Origin: Bacillota bacterium
Lineage (GTDB): Bacteria > Bacillota_A > Clostridia > Lachnospirales > WQUN01
Length of the DNA stretch: 11,089 bases
Assembly (NCBI GenBank): GCA_009786175.1
Contig: WQTQ01000154.1
Location: 1-11,089, forward strand
Direction of reading: 5' to 3'
The notes under the pieces are model-generated. The model had not been told where the DNA came from and made no database searches. It saw nothing but the letters and a program-made list of their open reading frames with translations. Both the position numbers and the translations under genes were made by a program. Below, one piece after another: positions 2,321-9,123 of this stretch; the stretch's first letter is position 1, and each line of letters starts with the position of its first letter.

Positions 2321-4210
2321 ATGCAAAACATATATCTGGAAAATGTAACCCTGGACGATGCCCTTGACAACTACCTATCCCACCTCACCCCCTTCCCTCT
2401 TACTGTCGGCCAAGTACCTGTAACCGACGCCTTAGGCCGCGTAACCTCCCATGCCGTCTTCGCGGCCAACAATTCCCCGCTGTACGACTGTGCCGCTATG
2501 GACGGCATTGCAGTTGTGTCCCGGCATACACAAGGCGCGCGGGAAGTTTCGCCCGTTACGCTAAAACATGGCCAGGATTTTGTATATGTAGACACCGGCG
2601 ACCCGGTTCTGCCCCCCTACGACGCGGTAATTATGGTCGAGGAAGTACAGAAAGCCGGTAACGACGTAATCATTCGCAAAGCCGCCGTAAGTTATCAACA
2701 CATACGTGCAATTGGCGAAGATGTGGTAAAGAACGAGTTGATAATTCCAACCGGTAGGAAAATCCGACCGGTTGACATCGGCGCACTTCTGTCCGGCGGC
2801 ATAACCTCCGTTTCCGTAAAAGCACAGCCCATAATCGCCGTTATCCCCACAGGGTCCGAGCTTATTGAGCCGGGAGACGAAATTAAAACCGGCAGCATAA
2901 TCGAATCCAATTCGCGGATGCTGGAGGCGTTAATACAAGAAGACGGCTGCCAACCCTGCCGTTTTCCCATTGTGCCGGACATTGAAACAGAACTGCGGGA
3001 AACCCTAAAGCACGCCGCAGCCGCTTGTGACATGGTTTTGCTATGCTCCGGCACCAGCGCGGGGCGGGAAGATTACACAAGAAAAATAATCGAGGAACTT
3101 GGGGAAGTTGTAACCCACGGTGTTGCCATTAAGCCCGGCAAACCCGCCATACTTGCCATAATCGGCGGCAAACCTGTAATCGGTGTACCCGGGTACCCGG
3201 TATCCGCATACATTGTGTACAAAAATATTATTTCTCCCATTATAAAAAGCTTGCAGCACATGGACCGGGAACACCCCGCAACCATAGAAGCCACCCTTAC
3301 AAGGCGGCTGGTGTCTTCCGTAAAGCACAAGGAGTTTGTGCGTGTCAAACTTGGTAAAATTAACGGCAGATTTATTGCCACACCACTGTCACGGGGGGCC
3401 GGGGCAGGCATGAGCCTTGTTAGGGCAGACGGCTTTTGTGTAATAGATCAAGATCTGGAAGGGCTGGAAGCGGGCGCGACCGTTCAAATATCCCTGTTGC
3501 GAGACTTGGCGGGCATAGAAAAAACCGTAATATCCATCGGCAGTCACGACATTATCATGGACATTTTGTCAGATTTAATGGGAACCGACATATGCCTATC
3601 AAGTTCCCACGTGGGTACAATCGGCGGGCTGATGGCCCTAAAAAACAAAGAGTGTCACATTGCACCAATCCATCACTTGGACGAGGCAACCGGCACGTAT
3701 AATGTAAATATTATCAAACAGCTGTTCCCGGGCCGGCAAATGGCACTAATCAAGGGCGTACAGCGGGTGCAGGGCATAATGGTGGCAAAAGGAAACCCGC
3801 TAAACATCACCGGCGTAGCAGACGTAAAGCGGTGCCGCTACGTAAACCGCAGCCGCGGCACGGGCACGCGGATGTTTCTCGACTACCAATTAAAGCTTGC
3901 CGGTATCCCGCCGGAAAATATAAACGGCTACGACAGGGAAGTTTCTACCCATATGAACGTGGGCGGCATAATTGCAAACGGCGGCGCAGACGCGGGGCTG
4001 GGTGTAATGTCTGCTGCTTTAGCCTGCAGCCCGGACTTTGTGCCCATTGGCGTAGAAGACTACGATTTTGCCCTTTTCGCAAATACGCTGGACAATGAAT
4101 ATGTTAAAGTTTTCATACATCATCTAAAATCGGAAAAATTCCGCAAAAAACTAAACGAACTGGGCGGATATACTGCAACTAATTGCGGGGAGGTTGTCAT
4201 CATTGAGTGA
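2321..4210 (+). CDS. moeA: MoeA molybdopterin molybdenumtransferase fused to a PBP-like (substrate-binding) domain
   Basis: The 629-residue protein has two parts. Residues 1 to about 395 are MoeA: the MDGIAV motif (60-65, usually MDGYA), IPTGSEL (175-181), SGTSAGREDY (243-252), KPGKP (271-275), GVPGYPVSA (288-296, where most MoeA have LPGNP) and a C-terminal domain near 320-395. MoeA inserts Mo or W into adenylylated molybdopterin. Residues about 400-605 are a periplasmic-binding-protein-like domain of the COG1910 type, recognisable by SSSHVGTIGGL (427-437), NRSRGTGTR (509-517) and the ADAGLG block near 556-561. This MoeA-PBP fusion is known in Bacillota and archaea; the extra domain is thought to bind the metal oxyanion or a ligand. 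The ATG at 2321 has TAAGGAG at 2306-2312. The stop overlaps the next gene, an E1-like enzyme, by 8 nt. An AOR lies nearby, so it may serve tungsten-cofactor assembly (inference). Confidence 0.9.
   Translation: MQNIYLENVTLDDALDNYLSHLTPFPLTVGQVPVTDALGRVTSHAVFAANNSPLYDCAAMDGIAVVSRHTQGAREVSPVTLKHGQDFVYVDTGDPVLPPYDAVIMVEEVQKAGNDVIIRKAAVSYQHIRAIGEDVVKNELIIPTGRKIRPVDIGALLSGGITSVSVKAQPIIAVIPTGSELIEPGDEIKTGSIIESNSRMLEALIQEDGCQPCRFPIVPDIETELRETLKHAAAACDMVLLCSGTSAGREDYTRKIIEELGEVVTHGVAIKPGKPAILAIIGGKPVIGVPGYPVSAYIVYKNIISPIIKSLQHMDREHPATIEATLTRRLVSSVKHKEFVRVKLGKINGRFIATPLSRGAGAGMSLVRADGFCVIDQDLEGLEAGATVQISLLRDLAGIEKTVISIGSHDIIMDILSDLMGTDICLSSSHVGTIGGLMALKNKECHIAPIHHLDEATGTYNVNIIKQLFPGRQMALIKGVQRVQGIMVAKGNPLNITGVADVKRCRYVNRSRGTGTRMFLDYQLKLAGIPPENINGYDREVSTHMNVGGIIANGGADAGLGVMSAALACSPDFVPIGVEDYDFALFANTLDNEYVKVFIHHLKSEKFRKKLNELGGYTATNCGEVVIIE
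4187..4193 (+). promoter_or_regulatory. Ribosome binding site GGGGAGG that decides the TTG start of the E1-like gene
   Basis: GGGGAGG at 4187-4193 lies inside the end of the MoeA-PBP gene. It directly abuts a TTG at 4194, which leaves no spacer, but stands 9 nt before a second in-frame TTG at 4203. The second TTG is therefore the more likely start. Confidence 0.7.
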
Positions 4211-4895
4211 CTTTATAAAACCACGATACAAACGAAACCTAAACGCTTTATCCGCACCGGACATGCAAAAACTCCACAACGGAAAGGTCTGCGTAGTTGG
4301 GGCTGGGGGCCTGGGCGGATACATTGTGGAACTTTTGGCGCGCATAGGCGTGTTACACATTACCGTCGTAGACTATGATTTATTTGAATCCGGTAATTTA
4401 AACCGCCAGCTTTTCTCCGAAGAATCTAATATGGGCAGTTACAAAGCAGATGCGGCAATTGACCGCGTGGCCAGAATAAATTCTGACGTGGCCATTAACG
4501 GCATAAAAGAAAAATTAACGCAGAACAACGCACCAAAAATTATTGCAGGCCATCATGTAGTCATGGACGCGCTGGACAATATACAAACGCGATTAATGCT
4601 TGCTAATGTATGCGCAAAGCTTAACATCCCGATGATACACGGCAGCATTGCAGGCTGGTACGGGCAAGTGGCATGTATATTCCCAGGCGACGGAACCCTT
4701 GGTAAAATTTTTGGCGGCACAAAAAAAGAACACGGCGTCGAAAATGAACTGGGCAATTTGCCATTCACCGCTTCTGCAGTGGCGTCTGTACAATGCGCAG
4801 AATGCGTTAAAATTTTAACCGGCAAAGATGTTGTAAAAAATTCCGTTATACGGATAGACTTACTAAACTGTGAGTACGATACCATTTCGCTATAA
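4203..4895 (+). CDS. ThiF/MoeB/HesA-family E1-like adenylyltransferase
   Basis: Members of this family adenylate the C-terminal glycine of MoaD/ThiS-type sulfur carriers. The 230-residue product has the ATP-binding VGAGGLGG (32-39), D57/D59 in VVDYDLFESGNLNRQLF with N65 and R68, K81, and MDALDN (121-126, D125). A C-terminal helix ends in ECVKILTG. It lacks the paired CxxC zinc motifs of classical MoeB; the CAEC at 198-201 falls in the helix that normally reads QAxEA, so it is probably not a zinc site. No rhodanese domain is present. The start is TTG at 4203 rather than 4194, based on ribosome-binding-site spacing. It overlaps the MoeA-PBP gene by 8 nt, so translation is probably coupled. The likely partner is the MoaD/ThiS-like protein at 6732-6935. 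MoeB, ThiF and HesA types cannot be told apart with confidence here. Confidence 0.85.
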   Translation: MSDFIKPRYKRNLNALSAPDMQKLHNGKVCVVGAGGLGGYIVELLARIGVLHITVVDYDLFESGNLNRQLFSEESNMGSYKADAAIDRVARINSDVAINGIKEKLTQNNAPKIIAGHHVVMDALDNIQTRLMLANVCAKLNIPMIHGSIAGWYGQVACIFPGDGTLGKIFGGTKKEHGVENELGNLPFTASAVASVQCAECVKILTGKDVVKNSVIRIDLLNCEYDTISL

Positions 4896-4904
4896 TCCCC
4901 ACGG

Positions 4905-4934
4905 TGGACTATATCCTTGCTCATGTGCTACAAT
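4905..4934 (+). promoter_or_regulatory. Sigma-A-type promoter for the ABC-F leader transcript
   Basis: A -35-like TGGACT (4905-4910, 4 of 6 matches) is followed by 18 bp and TACAAT (4929-4934, 5 of 6). TG at 4926-4927 makes an extended -10. Transcription would begin near 4941, about 37 nt before the leader ORF. Prediction from motif only. Confidence 0.55.
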
Positions 4935-4977
4935 GCAATAACCTTATAAGAAATACGATGGAAAGGGGTGGTTTTAT

Positions 4978-5055
4978 ATGTTCTTATCTTGGAAAGTTAC
5001 CAAGTGCAGAATCGGACATGCTTCCCTCCGTACAAGGTCTGAATTTTTGGGCTAA
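4978..5055 (+). CDS. Putative 25-residue leader peptide of the ABC-F gene
   Basis: The ATG at 4978 is preceded by AAAGGGGTGG (4961-4970), close to the ideal ribosome binding site at good spacing, and the frame runs 25 codons to TAA at 5053-5055. The peptide starts MFLSWKVTKC and ends RTRSEFLG. It ends 126 nt before the ABC-F start. Codons 19-22 (5032-5042) form one arm of an 11-bp pairing with the segment that otherwise sequesters the ABC-F ribosome binding site. Leader ORFs that sense ribosome-stalling antibiotics are well known upstream of ABC-F and erm genes in Bacillota. I do not recognise this particular peptide. A 38-codon ORF in another frame (4958-5074) overlaps it but has only a weak ribosome binding site. 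Confidence 0.6.
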   Translation: MFLSWKVTKCRIGHASLRTRSEFLG

Positions 5056-5176
5056 GGCGATTACGCTTTTGTAAAAACAAAAGTGTTGTGCGGAGGTAAT
5101 TTAGTATCGCCTCAATAAAGTATCAAAATCTCGGGCCTTGTTTAAAGTTGAGAATACGATTTTTCACAAGGAGAGA
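5032..5176 (+). promoter_or_regulatory. Translational attenuator: competing antisequestor and sequestor of the ABC-F ribosome binding site
   Basis: Segment 5131-5141 can pair in two exclusive ways. The antisequestor joins 5032-5042 (ACAAGGTCTGA) to 5131-5141 (TCGGGCCTTGT) as 11 continuous pairs including two G-U. The sequestor joins CCTTGT (5136-5141) to ACAAGG (5166-5171) and TCTC (5129-5132) to GAGA (5173-5176), 10 pairs around a small 3x1 internal loop. It covers AAGGAG (5168-5173), the ABC-F ribosome binding site. The hexamer ACAAGG occurs both in the leader ORF and at the ribosome binding site, so the leader copy acts as a decoy. A ribosome stalled early in the leader would leave 5032-5042 free and open the site. 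One reaching the stop codon would cover that arm and allow sequestration. The pairings are seen; the switch is inferred. No terminator-like U-run was seen, so control looks translational. Confidence 0.65.
5056..5111 (+). repeat. Nested hairpin inside the attenuator loop
   Basis: An outer stem GGCGAT (5056-5061) with ATCGCC (5106-5111) encloses ACGCTTTTG (5063-5071) paired to CAAAAGTGT (5078-5086). The inner stem is 9 bp with one G-U and a 6-nt loop. Both lie in the loop of the antisequestor, beginning just after the leader stop codon, and would bring its two distant arms together. A purine-rich GCGGAGG at 5090-5096 is also held in this structure, but no start codon follows at a useful distance. 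Confidence 0.5.
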
Positions 5177-5181
5177 GACAT

Positions 5182-6789
5182 ATGATTGAAATTGCAATAA
5201 ATTCTATTCACAAAAATTTTGGGTTTAACCCTGTATTAAAAGATGCCAACTTCGAAATTTACACAGGCGAACATGTTGGGCTTGTAGGCAGAAACGGCGC
5301 AGGTAAAACCACACTGTTCAACTTAATCTTAGGCAAAGAACAGCCGGACAAAGGTACAGTTTCTATTAGGAAAAACGCCTCTTTGGGCTACCTGGAACAA
5401 ATTCATAAAACCACTGCCAGCAGCCTTTCTGCAGAAGGGGTTTTAAAGGAAGCCTTTGCGGATGTGTTTGCCATTGAAAAACGGCTGCGGCAACTGGAAA
5501 TTGAAATGGCAGAAGACGAAAAAAATCTCGACAAACATCTGCGAGAGTATTCACGGCTGCAGGATCAATTTATTGCCATGGACGGCTATTCCATAGACGA
5601 GGAGTTTAACCGTATTGTAAACGGTTTCAAGTTATGGGATATTCTTGCCACGCCATTCAACAGCCTTAGCGGCGGCGAAAAAACTATTATAAAATTGGCG
5701 GCCTTACTGCTAAACAAGCCGGATATTCTTCTGCTGGACGAGCCGACCAACCACTTGGACATAACTATGCTGGAATGGCTGGAAATTTTCCTGGCCAAGT
5801 ACCAGGGTACGGTGCTGATGATTTCCCACGACAGATATTTCCTGGATAAAACCACCACCAAGACAATTTTAGTGGAAAGCGGCGTATGCGATGTTTACAA
5901 CGGCAATTATTCCTACCATGTAGAGGAAAAAGAACAGCGGCTGATTCAGGAATTTAGCGAATACAAAACCCAACAGCGCAAAATAGAGGCAATGGAAGCA
6001 GCCATTAAGCGGTACAGGCTATGGGGAGCCCAAGGCGATAACGAGAAATTTTTCATAAAGGCCAAAGAGTTGGAAAAACGGCTGGAGAAAATGGAAATTT
6101 TAGACGACCCAAGGCCAAAGGAAATAAAACTGCCCCTCACCTTCAACACAGAGCGGGGCAGCAAAGACGTTGTGGTTATACGGGACCTGTGCTTTGCCTA
6201 CGGCAGCAACGTCATCTTCGATAAATTTGACATGGATATTTACTACGGCGAAAAAGTATGTATTCACGGCCCCAACGGTGCCGGTAAGTCTACACTGTTC
6301 AAGTTAATTTTGGGCAGCTTGCAGCCAAGTTCAGGTGGTCTCAAAATTGGACCGACTGTAAACATCGGATTCATACCGCAGGAAATTACATTTGCCAACG
6401 ACAAAGCCAGCATTGTTGACACATTCCGGGATGAAGTTGTTTGCCTGGAAGGCCAGGCCAGACATATTTTGGCCAAGTATTATTTCGTGGGCGATTCTGT
6501 TTTTAAGCGGGTTGGCGGCCTGTCCGGCGGCGAAAAGGTGCTGCTTAAGCTGGCAATACTAATACAAAAAAACGTAAACTTCTTTATCCTGGACGAACCC
6601 ACCAACCACATTGATATTGTCTCCCGCGAAATTTTAGAAGAAGCCTTATTGGCGTTTAAAGGTACGCTTCTGTTTATTTCCCATGACAGGTATTTTATAG
6701 AAAAGCTTGCCGAAAGAAAAATTGCAATACATCACCCGCCTACAATAGACGGGTACAGCGTAACTTCATCCTCATCCGCAAGGACATAA
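5182..6789 (+). CDS. ABC-F family ATPase, possible antibiotic-resistance ribosome-protection type
   Basis: The 535-residue protein has two ABC ATPase domains and no membrane segments. Domain 1 has Walker A GRNGAGKT (36-43), LSGGEK (162-167), Walker B with DEPTNH and the ISHDRYF switch region near 214-220. A charged helical linker (about 250-310) is the part that reaches toward the ribosomal P-site region. Domain 2 has GPNGAGKS (363-370), LSGGEK (447-452) and DEPTNH (471-476). ABC-F proteins act on the ribosome; some displace lincosamides, pleuromutilins or macrolides. The attenuator-like leader supports an antibiotic-response role, but sequence alone does not prove resistance. The ATG at 5182 has AAGGAG at 5168-5173. 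Domain 1 continues after SHDRYF to an NGNYSYH motif; domain 2 stops short at KIAI (516), and the last 19 residues are encoded across the convergent MoaD-like gene. The C-terminus therefore looks truncated and replaced. Confidence 0.88.
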   Translation: MIEIAINSIHKNFGFNPVLKDANFEIYTGEHVGLVGRNGAGKTTLFNLILGKEQPDKGTVSIRKNASLGYLEQIHKTTASSLSAEGVLKEAFADVFAIEKRLRQLEIEMAEDEKNLDKHLREYSRLQDQFIAMDGYSIDEEFNRIVNGFKLWDILATPFNSLSGGEKTIIKLAALLLNKPDILLLDEPTNHLDITMLEWLEIFLAKYQGTVLMISHDRYFLDKTTTKTILVESGVCDVYNGNYSYHVEEKEQRLIQEFSEYKTQQRKIEAMEAAIKRYRLWGAQGDNEKFFIKAKELEKRLEKMEILDDPRPKEIKLPLTFNTERGSKDVVVIRDLCFAYGSNVIFDKFDMDIYYGEKVCIHGPNGAGKSTLFKLILGSLQPSSGGLKIGPTVNIGFIPQEITFANDKASIVDTFRDEVVCLEGQARHILAKYYFVGDSVFKRVGGLSGGEKVLLKLAILIQKNVNFFILDEPTNHIDIVSREILEEALLAFKGTLLFISHDRYFIEKLAERKIAIHHPPTIDGYSVTSSSSART

Positions 6790-6935
6790 TCCTTTGGCAC
6801 GGCTTTCCCGTTTATAACCCCAAAACCAATGTCGTCTGCCGGAAAACCACCGGCGGCTATGGCATCATCAATAGTAGAGCCTTCAGGCAGGTCAATTTCT
6901 GACCTGCCTTTTAAATATTTTACGGTTATTTTCAC
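6732..6935 (-). CDS. MoaD/ThiS-like ubiquitin-fold sulfur carrier
   Basis: The 67-residue product begins MKITVKYLK and ends YPSIVGG. The terminal Gly-Gly is the site adenylated by an E1-like enzyme and converted to thiocarboxylate in MoaD and ThiS. The pattern of a first strand, an LPEGSTIDDAI helix, a VNGK-like INGKAV segment and DEDEVTLYPSIVGG matches the beta-grasp fold. The start is GTG at 6935-6933, overlapping the AOR stop as GTGA, so translation is probably coupled and the carrier belongs to the AOR operon. It probably supplies sulfur for the AOR pterin dithiolene, with the ThiF-like protein at 4203-4895 as activator (inference). Its last 58 bp overlap the opposing ABC-F gene. A plus-strand terminator hairpin falls within its codons 9-17. 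ThiS cannot be excluded, but no thiazole genes are nearby. Confidence 0.85.
   Translation of the reverse strand: MKITVKYLKGRSEIDLPEGSTIDDAIAAGGFPADDIGFGVINGKAVPKDYVLADEDEVTLYPSIVGG
6885..6912 (+). terminator. Intrinsic terminator for the ABC-F transcript, inside the MoaD-like gene
   Basis: AGGCAGGTCA (6885-6894) and TGACCTGCCT (6900-6909) form a perfect 10-bp stem with a 5-nt loop, followed by TTT and then AAATATTTT. On the plus strand this is a classic stem plus short T-run, about 95 bp after the ABC-F stop. On the minus strand the stem is not followed by a T-run, so it should not stop the AOR operon. Confidence 0.65.
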
Positions 6936-8683
6936 TCAAACTCATCCAATCCGGTTATTTTTTCTTTGTATTTCTCGATTATCTCCATGGCCACATCTTC
7001 TTTTAACAGATTTTGCATGGCCGGTGTTTCAAAAAACCTTTTGGGCAGTTTAATTTTTGTCAAGTCTATACCAAGAGCCTTTTTTATGCGCAGTTTTGTT
7101 GCATAAGTGCGCTTTGCCACTGCGTCCAGTTCTTCGTTTGTCATTTGTACGCCAATTGCCTCAAAGGCATCAATAATTGTTTGCCTGTCGTAAACCTTAC
7201 GGGCAAACAGGCAGATAACCAACGAATTTAACATGCATCGCTCTACTTCCTCTTTTAGCAGCCTGTCAACCATGTTGTCTATGTCCAGCGGCTTCATTTC
7301 CTGGTCTATAGAGTAGCCCCCATTGTCCAAATGGGATTGACGGGCACCTACAGCCGCGCCCACAAGGGAGCCGTAGCCTGTATGGTATCCGGGCATTTCA
7401 TTACCGGCTATTTGCATGGCGTAATCTTTGCCGCCATAAATTTCTGCCGCATGTTTTACGCCCTTACCCAAATTTTTGTAAAACTCATTTTTCATATTGG
7501 CGATAAAGCGTACTGCGGTCAAATATTCCTTATAGCTGCCAAATTTTAGGGGCAGCAACGTATGTTTTTCGGAAATAATGCCCTTCTCCAGTGCTTCTGT
7601 GGCCCAGCCAAGAGCAACACCGGCACTCATGGCGTCAAGGCCCGCAATTTCAACTTCCTCAATCAGCTCTAAAATATGCTCCGGGTTGTTTAGCCCCAAA
7701 TTTGAGCCAAGGGCAAATATAAGCTCGTAGTCGTAGCCTACATTTATAGTCTCGTATTCGTGACCGGTTACATCAAACTCCCGCCTAAACTGCCCTATGT
7801 GTATACACCCAACAGGGCAGCCCGCGCAAGCAAGCTTACGCACCTGCCGCTCTTCGGAAAAGACTTCACCGCTAATTTTATCCGCATATTCAAATGTACT
7901 TTGCTGCATGTTGCGCGTAGGCAATCCGCCCGCCGCGTTTAATGGCAGTACATTTACCGGTGTGCCAATGTCATGATACTTTTTCATAACATCCGACTTA
8001 TCGCAAACTTCGTAAATTTTACGGTACATTTTAAAGTATTGCGGGAAATTTTCGATATTCATTTCCCTGTCGCCTGCGATATTTATTGCTTTTAATTTTT
8101 TCGCGCCAAACAACGCCCCAAGACCCAAACGGCCAAAATGGCGGTACCTGTCAACGGTAACATTCGCGTAGGAAATTTGATTTTCCCCGGCGGGGCCGAT
8201 ACGAATAATAGAACGCTTGCCGCCGTGCTGCTCTTCAAAGCGGATAATTCGGCCTATATTATCTTTTTCTGTACCCCACATTGGCCGGGCATCCCGCAAA
8301 ATAACATCGTTGTTGGAAATGGAAATGTAACAGGGTTTTTCCGCCTTGTTATTTATCACAATAGCGTCAAACCCGGCAGAAAACATACTAAGTGCCAAGC
8401 GGCCCCCGGCATATGACTCCCCAAGTTCCCCTGTAAGGGGCGAGATAAACATGGCCACAGTTTTTGTAATGACGGGATAAATTGTGGAAAGAGGCCCAAT
8501 GGCAAGCACAATTGGCTGGGACGGGTCTAATGGCGAAAGGTCCGTATGCATATTTTCTTCTAACAATTTTGACGCGATACCAACGCCGCCCATGTAGCGG
8601 TTAAGATCTTCCCGTTCAACTATACGGATTTTTTTGGTACTCATATCAATATACAGCACGCGAATGGTTCTTTGATAAATCAT
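6932..8683 (-). CDS. Aldehyde:ferredoxin oxidoreductase-family tungsten/molybdenum-pterin enzyme
   Basis: AOR-family enzymes oxidise aldehydes to acids and pass electrons to ferredoxin, using a bis-pterin tungsten centre and one [4Fe-4S] cluster. The 583-residue product has the AOR N-terminal domain (RVLYIDMSTKKI, GIASKLL, GLGALFGAKKLKAI at 187-200). Cluster ligands are seen as C286, C289 and C293 (CAGCPVGC), with C491 in LVICLFAR; this spacing closely matches the archaeal AOR. Pterin-binding segments include HEYETINVGYDYELIFALGSN (308-328, in two parts) and GLDAMSAGVALGWATEALEKG. The region around H451 (SHLDNGGYSID) is unlike the usual GxxH segment, so this is a divergent member with unknown substrate. 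The start is ATG 8683, overlapping the ferredoxin stop as ATGA, with GGAGGAG at 8692-8698. An upstream start at 8743 would overlap the ferredoxin gene and lies outside the family alignment. Confidence 0.9.
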   Translation of the reverse strand: MIYQRTIRVLYIDMSTKKIRIVEREDLNRYMGGVGIASKLLEENMHTDLSPLDPSQPIVLAIGPLSTIYPVITKTVAMFISPLTGELGESYAGGRLALSMFSAGFDAIVINNKAEKPCYISISNNDVILRDARPMWGTEKDNIGRIIRFEEQHGGKRSIIRIGPAGENQISYANVTVDRYRHFGRLGLGALFGAKKLKAINIAGDREMNIENFPQYFKMYRKIYEVCDKSDVMKKYHDIGTPVNVLPLNAAGGLPTRNMQQSTFEYADKISGEVFSEERQVRKLACAGCPVGCIHIGQFRREFDVTGHEYETINVGYDYELIFALGSNLGLNNPEHILELIEEVEIAGLDAMSAGVALGWATEALEKGIISEKHTLLPLKFGSYKEYLTAVRFIANMKNEFYKNLGKGVKHAAEIYGGKDYAMQIAGNEMPGYHTGYGSLVGAAVGARQSHLDNGGYSIDQEMKPLDIDNMVDRLLKEEVERCMLNSLVICLFARKVYDRQTIIDAFEAIGVQMTNEELDAVAKRTYATKLRIKKALGIDLTKIKLPKRFFETPAMQNLLKEDVAMEIIEKYKEKITGLDEFE

Positions 8684-9123
8684 TCCGCAGTCTCCTCCGT
8701 TTCCATTGAGGTCTCGTCCGGCACTACGTCCAAGTACATACAATTATGCGGGCAATATATGGCGCATACCCCGCAGTGGTGGCAAATAAGCGGCAGCTTA
8801 GTACTCTCACAAAAATCTATCGCGCCCACAGAGCATATACGGACGCAACGCTTGCAGCCTATACACGCATCTTTTTTTAGTACTACGCCCCCGCCTTTTC
8901 TGGGTATCAATGCATCGGACGGACAAACTTCCACACAGGCGGCATCAAGGCAAGCGTGACAAACCGTATCAACAAACTTGCCGGAAACACCACCGTAAGT
9001 GCGTATTTTAATACGGCTTTGCTGCAGCGAATGGCTTTTGGAATTAACCGCAGCGCACACTAACATACAGGTAAAACAGCCGATACATTTAAACATACTT
9101 TCGGTTCGCAAAATTTTAGCCAT
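8680..9123 (-). CDS. Four-cluster [4Fe-4S] ferredoxin-like electron-transfer subunit
   Basis: The 147-residue protein has four cysteine sets: C13/C16/C19/C23, C55/C58/C63/C67, C87/C90/C93/C97 and C114/C117/C120/C124, with extra C105 and C128. This pattern is typical of HycB/DmsB/AorA-type subunits with four [4Fe-4S] clusters. It is the first gene of the minus-strand operon and is joined to AOR by a 4-nt ATGA overlap, so it is most likely the AOR electron-acceptor subunit. The tail (about 134-147) is acidic and of low complexity (DETSMETEETAE). No signal peptide or Tat motif is seen, so it should be cytoplasmic. The start ATG 9123-9121 has AGGAG (CTCCT at 9132-9136 on the plus strand) 8 nt upstream. 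No flavin (AorC-like) subunit is present in the window. Confidence 0.9.
   Translation of the reverse strand: MAKILRTESMFKCIGCFTCMLVCAAVNSKSHSLQQSRIKIRTYGGVSGKFVDTVCHACLDAACVEVCPSDALIPRKGGGVVLKKDACIGCKRCVRICSVGAIDFCESTKLPLICHHCGVCAIYCPHNCMYLDVVPDETSMETEETAE

Follow-up and report, generated by a model that had tools for sequence, protein, structure and literature searches.

The 286-base leader ahead of an ABC-F protein gene in a Bacillota bacterium of the Lachnospirales (contig WQTQ01000154.1) is probably a translational attenuator of the ermC type. The contig, 11,089 nucleotides long and here called the window, carries this leader between the end of a ThiF/MoeB-like open reading frame (ORF) at 4895 and the start of the ABC-F gene at 5182. 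The arrangement has the parts by which erm-type control is recognised: in the sequence, a leader ORF with its own Shine-Dalgarno (SD) site before the regulated gene; a predicted hairpin (17 pairs, z score -4.27) that sequesters the SD site of that gene; an alternative pairing that, by computation, is freed by a ribosome stalled within the leader; and a leader in which a consensus scan finds no intrinsic terminator. The parts are as follows.

4905..4934, + strand: weak promoter-like site TGGACT-18-TACAAT, with TG ahead of the second hexamer (9/12 consensus matches)
4963..4969, + strand: SD site of the leader ORF, AAAGGGG (seven contiguous positions, six exact and one G-U)
4978..5055, + strand: leader ORF of 25 codons, MFLSWKVTKCRIGHASLRTRSEFLG (from the sequence)
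5025..5034, + strand: competitor arm 1, predicted to pair with 5087-5096 (fold of 5017-5128, z score -3.97)
5032..5042, + strand: anti-sequestor arm ACAAGGTCTGA within the leader ORF, pairing with 5131-5141 (sequence pairing)
5047..5053, + strand: partner of 5036-5042 in a small predicted hairpin that also holds the anti-sequestor (fold)
5063..5086, + strand: local hairpin (5063-5072 with 5077-5086) between the leader stop and competitor arm 2
5087..5096, + strand: competitor arm 2 (fold)
5129..5141, + strand: anti-SD arm, outer part 5129-5132 and core 5136-5141 (sequence and fold)
5144..5163, + strand: inner stem of the sequestor, 5144-5150 with 5157-5163 (fold)
5166..5178, + strand: 3' arm of the sequestor, containing the ABC-F SD site AAGGAG at 5168-5173 (sequence and fold)
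5182..6789, + strand: ABC-F protein gene, 535 amino acids, ribosomal protection-like ABC-F family (NF000355.4)

Pairings within the leader

A sequence-only reading of this DNA had described a ribosome-controlled switch built on two copies of one hexamer that compete for a single partner. The hexamers lie where that reading placed them (ACAAGG at 5032-5037 and 5166-5171, CCTTGT at 5136-5141), the leader ORF is present, and the leader pairing of 5032-5042 with 5131-5141 does run to 11 consecutive pairs, two of them G-U. Computation also supports the proposal that this pairing and the sequestor exclude each other. The sequestor itself has the 10 pairs ascribed to it, but they form two helices of four and six pairs around a 3 x 3 internal loop (5129-5132 with 5175-5178, and 5136-5141 with 5166-5171), so that the structure ends at 5178 and not at 5176. 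These helices enclose an inner stem of seven pairs that the earlier reading lacked, and the complete predicted sequestor reaches -17.6 kcal/mol, a stability equalled by 0/200 shuffles.

The competitor helix 5025-5034:5087-5096, whose first arm lies inside the leader ORF, was likewise absent from the earlier description. In the same predicted domain (5017-5128; none of 200 shuffles was equally stable) 5036-5042 pairs with 5047-5053, and the anti-sequestor arm is therefore held in two helices. Over the whole leader (4941-5200) the predicted fold has a z score of -2.43, with one of 200 shuffles equally stable.

Dependence on ribosome position

With a ribosome placed at each leader codon, we computed an opening cost, defined as the free energy needed to unpair 5167-5175; in the main treatment only the RNA 3' of the ribosome's leading edge (+16) folds, with the RNA ending at 5215. 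A ribosome at codons 1-11 leaves a cost of 5.5-7.4 kcal/mol, which falls to 2.0, 1.9 and 3.1 kcal/mol at codons 12, 13 and 14, and rises to 7.2 kcal/mol at codon 15 and 9.1-11.5 kcal/mol at codons 16-26. The earlier expectation that a stall before about codon 13 opens the gene is thus borne out in part: earlier positions are easier, but not uniformly, as codons 12-14 give the strongest effect and codons 1-11 a partial one. Codons 1-11 are only partly open because the competitor helix holds the anti-sequestor until the ribosome covers its 5' side, and the leading edge touches competitor arm 1 at codons 12-14. The complementary expectation, that a ribosome near the leader stop closes the site, agrees with the computed cost of about 11 kcal/mol there, and the site is hardest to open in the last third of the leader.

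The profile is similar when the RNA ends at 5200 or 5240 (6.1-8.2 kcal/mol at codons 1-11, 1.2-2.8 at codons 12-13 and 3.6-4.0 at codon 14). Footprint edges from +12 to +19 keep its shape and shift the best codons within 11-15, and four energy parameter sets leave the shape unchanged, with a smaller span in two. Penalising the pairs between leader and anti-SD arm raises the cost to 9.6-12.2 kcal/mol at every position; since this abolishes the gain, the opening depends on that pairing.

Comparison with shuffled sequences and with ermC

In the main control we shuffled 4941-5128 with dinucleotides kept and the sequestor left intact, sampling 16 of the 26 ribosome positions. The drop in opening cost is 9.3 in the window against 1.3 +/- 1.7 in the shuffles, and the mean drop 5.9 against 0.3 +/- 1.3; neither was reached by any of 400 shuffles. 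The minimum opening cost itself was matched by 5/400. The isolated duplex of leader and anti-SD arm was as good in 26/2000 shuffles of the leader ORF and in 83/2000 shuffles of 4941-5128, so that the duplex alone is modestly unusual, and the position dependence of the whole arrangement is much more so.

These counts bear on a simpler account, in which the leader is merely a structured 5' region whose sequestor lowers ABC-F expression constitutively and whose ORF is a chance frame or mere insulation. The modest rarity of the leader:anti-SD match in the leader-ORF shuffles would suit it. Against it stand the position-dependent drop, the strong SD site of the leader ORF, with its 8-base spacer, and the leader ORFs found at all 11 examined loci of the related ABC-F clade (below); we regard this account as quite improbable.

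As a positive control, the same opening-cost method was applied to the ermC leader of pE194 and recovers its behaviour: 6.7-6.8 at codons 1-7, 1.1-2.9 at codons 8-16 and 5.7-7.2 at codons 17-20, with a drop of 4.7 that 2/400 shuffles reached. The known ermC stall codon, codon 9, lies inside the computed open range of codons 8-16.

Proposed mechanism

We propose a series of linked steps that resembles the control of ermC. The strong SD site of the leader would load a ribosome which, on reaching the stop codon, would cover the anti-sequestor at 5032-5042; the newly made anti-SD arm (5129-5141) could then capture the ABC-F ribosome-binding site and keep expression of the gene low. A ribosome that stalls before mid-leader, ideally at about codons 12-14, would break the competitor helix, and the freed anti-sequestor would take the anti-SD arm and leave the ABC-F ribosome-binding site exposed. 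Sequence and computation show the pairings, their mutual exclusion and the position dependence; we infer that the leader is translated, that an inducing drug stalls ribosomes on it, that such stalling induces the ABC-F protein, and thereby which way the gene is regulated in vivo. The opening cost would drop to 2-3 kcal/mol with a stall at codons 12-14, and from about 11 to about 7 kcal/mol with one at the start codon; start-codon stalling is reported for some ABC-F upstream ORFs (uORFs) (PMC9226507). More tentatively, because the site becomes cheaper to open with ribosomes halted at any of many early codons, the leader might respond to several classes of drug and not to one motif-specific drug, by analogy with the proposal made for toiL (below).

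The control is probably translational, because no terminator-like site follows: none was found on the + strand of 4700-5400 by a simple consensus scan, which can miss sites. A leader that instead chooses between terminator and antiterminator, as published for vmlR and msrD, would act by transcription attenuation. Related leaders of Listeria (L089, L104) and Enterococcus gilvus (L094) do carry a terminator-like site after the leader ORF and ahead of the gene, and the window has a TTTTT at 5159-5163. That T-run, however, belongs to the sequestor's inner stem, no T-run follows the hairpins 5063-5086 and 5129-5178, and the scan found no terminator-like site in two staphylococcal leaders (L090, L106) either. 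Transcription attenuation therefore seems unlikely for the window.

Translational coupling would reverse the sign of the effect, with ribosomes that finish the leader feeding the ABC-F gene and so raising its expression. The gene is indeed preceded by a leader ORF, and staphylococcal copies with 48 codons end their leader only 19 bases before the gene and show an easing of the site with a ribosome at the leader end. In the window, on the other hand, the leader stop is 126 bases ahead of the ABC-F start and the opening cost is about at its peak with a ribosome on that stop, which makes coupling very improbable here.

Known systems of similar design

Attenuation by translation and attenuation of ABC-F genes are both already known. 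The closest likeness to the proposed attenuator is the 19-codon ermCL leader of pE194, which also combines a leader ORF, an SD sequestor, an anti-sequestor and a competitor helix broken by the stalled ribosome; its computed profile is likewise harder early, open in mid-leader and closed late. The two differ in output, ermC encoding a ribosomal RNA methylase and the window gene an ABC-F protein, and the window has an unrelated 25-codon peptide, an anti-sequestor arm inside the leader ORF, a long distance between leader stop and gene, and early stalls that already open the site in part.

Among ABC-F genes, as far as the excerpts of the cited reports describe them, Clostridioides difficile cplR has a uORF encoding MRI and an SD site held in a hairpin, and with its terminator T-run mutated, translational attenuation was reported to be sufficient for suppression without drug (PMC10201436). 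An ABC-F gene with a uORF and a hairpin-held SD site is common to cplR and the window, whereas the cplR uORF has three codons and is followed by an intrinsic terminator. Stalling on the three-codon uORF (MIN) of Bacillus subtilis vmlR alters RNA pairing before the ABC-F gene, and one of its hairpins partly sequesters the SD site (PMC9226507), much as we propose here, but the vmlR leader holds an intrinsic terminator and antiterminator. Streptococcal msrD is also an ABC-F gene controlled by a leader peptide under a ribosome-targeting drug; unlike the window model, its six-codon leader MsrDL (MYLIFM) stalls the ribosome at its own stop codon and acts by transcription attenuation (PMC10314930). 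MsrDL and the window peptide both have an aromatic residue followed by Leu at positions 2-3. Finally, the Escherichia coli uORF toiL of topAI has been proposed to relieve occlusion of a ribosome-binding site when several drug classes stall ribosomes at different positions (PMC12121999, excerpt). It shares with the window a uORF and an occluded ribosome-binding site, and differs in belonging to a toxin-antitoxin operon with Rho-dependent termination.

Leaders of related ABC-F genes

Homologous ABC-F proteins at 67-96% identity (P0001-P0018) were found among the matches listed, and among the 120 homologues listed, the few at 52-57% identity that bear names include Turicibacter, Oscillospiraceae and Coprobacillaceae, which points to Bacillota. 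The best relatives in named records that could be compared at the DNA level are 38-43% identical, and a scan of genome contigs for relatives gave one off-target locus at 28%, in a metagenome-assembled genome labelled Hellea. In viral contigs a single-protein query found no relative, and a query with alignment A1 gave 146 confirmed matches; the 80 retained reach up to 44% in a best segment. In a midpoint-rooted tree of 40 proteins the window protein falls in a set of 21 rows (support 97/90) that includes Listeria L089, the staphylococcal plasmids L090, L105 and L106, and the pair of E. gilvus L094 and Listeria L104; Acetoanaerobium L007, of similar identity, sits outside it.

We looked in these loci for an ATG ORF of 12-60 codons with at least six exact SD matches, a definition set after the clade leaders had been seen. 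Such a leader precedes the gene at 11/11 clade loci examined, in four lineages and with lengths of 25-48 codons, against 2/25 loci outside the clade. The 11 count L091 and L107-L109, which are outside the tree and have leader peptides equal to those of tree members or one residue from them; the 25 contain 6 loci not in the tree and 12 of the 80 viral-contig loci, with gene starts picked by hand. The two outside loci with such a leader are L097, where the gene is annotated as optrA, and L017 on a viral contig; their leaders are almost identical, a 14-codon uORF MKSTT[I/K]VTFKELHV with a strong SD site.

The peptides have some features in common. MFL opens the peptide in the window, in Listeria L089 and in the staphylococcal leaders, and the leaders of L094 and L104 are alike (SKITLNE.../TKITSNE..., ...HAIAF/HAIGF...). 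L090, L091 and L105-L108 have a 40- or 48-codon leader that starts MFLIAYCCRYLQIIRNKF, with a strong SD site, 165-166 bases before the gene; the position of the leader end, codon 40 or 48, varies by copy, and the SD site of the gene can form a CTTCTTCC:GGAGGAAG pairing in these plasmid leaders. The stretch TTGGYGAAGTCTGYC (peptide L-x-K-S) is common to the leaders of Listeria L089 and L109 and staphylococcal L090, L091 and L105-L108, loci whose ABC-F proteins are only 47-49% identical; its counterpart in the window is CAAGGTCTGA, a suggestive likeness without computed significance. The 5' arm of the Listeria terminator, TCGGGCGCTTGT, similarly resembles the anti-SD arm of the window, TCGGGCCTTGT. 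We use neither likeness as evidence.

In five staphylococcal leaders, opening the gene's SD site takes 7.8-11.2 when the ribosome stands at codons 33-39 and 2.6-6.2 when it stands at codons 1-31. In L106 and L107 the cost is still high at the leader end (8.7-9.0), and the mean drop of 4.2 in L106 was reached by 1/200 shuffles. The staphylococcal position dependence is similar, though not identical, to that of the window. We tentatively suggest, as one possible reading, that the ABC-F clade of the window lineage, Listeria, Staphylococcus and Enterococcus was ancestrally under leader peptides of 25-48 codons, with possible multi-drug sensing, and that its output stage has been swapped. The stage would be an intrinsic terminator in Listeria and Enterococcus, and an SD sequestor in the staphylococcal plasmids and the window.

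Evidence that weighs against the proposed attenuator

Several results weigh against a switch of this kind, in the window or across the clade. When upstream RNA is allowed to pair across the ribosome, codons 10-13 cost 7.5-7.9 kcal/mol, because the ABC-F start becomes paired with RNA from near the leader start, and the cheapest opening moves to codons 7-9 (3.8-5.3 kcal/mol); the exact best codon is therefore not settled. In this treatment codons 22-26 cost 10.0-11.2 kcal/mol, and the leader:anti-SD pairing has a probability of at least about 0.8 at codon 13 in all 60 settings (combinations of RNA start, RNA end and footprint), which rounds to 0 from codon 16 onward. A late ribosome closing the site and an earlier one making it easier to open thus holds in both treatments, and the best codon differs between them. 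The ribosome-free full-length RNA opens the site for only 2.9-4.7 kcal/mol, so an untranslated leader should be leaky.

When the peptide is fixed and codons are drawn from the window's own usage, the window exceeds the resampled leaders only mildly (11/300 match the drop and 26/300 the mean drop), which points, mildly, to selection on the RNA over and above the peptide. The window peptide is only 16-32% identical to the leaders of its relatives. Three of the five staphylococcal leaders (L090, L091, L105) ease again after codon 40, to 3.8-6.9, as the ribosome comes close to the anti-SD arm or lies over it. For the Listeria leaders L089, L109 and L104 and E. gilvus L094, the model forms the terminator stem at nearly all ribosome positions (0.80-1.0), with no clear ribosome dependence; ribosome control is not shown there, and this counts against a clade-wide switch.

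We also considered macrolide stalling at the arrest motif +x+ (PMC10314930, excerpt) as the trigger. The leader has two Arg/Lys-X-Arg/Lys sites, KCR at codons 9-11 and RTR at codons 18-20; the first would put codon 10 in the ribosomal P site, where the ABC-F site is partly open, and the second codon 19, where it is closed, and we rejected this candidate.

Other features of the leader region and its gene

The promoter-like site at 4905-4934 is a weak call, since the consensus scan found two such sites in 4700-5400, both strands included, where 1.3 would be expected. A second-frame ORF of 38 codons (4958-5074, ATG at 4958) overlaps the leader ORF; it lacks an evident SD site, has no homologue among predicted proteins and bears no sign of being a coding frame. 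No Rfam family passed its gathering threshold in the window, and no transfer RNA or transfer-messenger RNA was found there. As a query, the leader peptide had no plasmid match, and its four matches in Bacillus phages (E = 8) are taken as chance.

The ABC-F protein scores 434.3 bits on the NCBIfam model NF000355.4 (ribosomal protection-like ABC-F; cut-off 380), has two ABC_tran stretches and an ABC_tran_Xtn domain, and belongs to NF000355. Among the best 25 of 191 models, the named resistance subfamilies OptrA, Vga, Sal, Msr, CplR, CarA and Lsa are all far below their cut-offs (CplR, 275.9 bits against 780). The AlphaFold model is of modest confidence, with a predicted template modelling score (pTM) of 0.45, and its best fold matches, headed by EttA, are ABC-F proteins of both kinds. 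The ABC-F ORF extends 58 bases (6732-6789) into a MoaD/ThiS-like gene that converges on it from the minus strand (6732-6935). As the 17 other rows of alignment A1 all stop short of this C-terminus, its tail probably comes from reading the neighbour's opposite strand. The surroundings (2321-9123) form a molybdenum or tungsten cofactor and aldehyde ferredoxin oxidoreductase (AFOR) neighbourhood, with a MoeA-PBP fusion, ThiF/MoeB-like and ThiS-like genes, AFOR and a 4Fe-4S protein, and no obvious link to antibiotic stress.

Implications

The literature searched (leader strings; topic titles and the starts of abstracts; most subscription journals lie outside this scope) held no report of these leader peptides. 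If the proposed attenuator is real, it would add a well-defined drug-inducible translational switch to a group of ABC-F proteins without described inducers in that literature, and the drugs that stall ribosomes on the leader should point to those against which the ABC-F protein guards. It would further suggest that control by leader peptides is general in this ABC-F clade, the plasmid-borne staphylococcal genes included.
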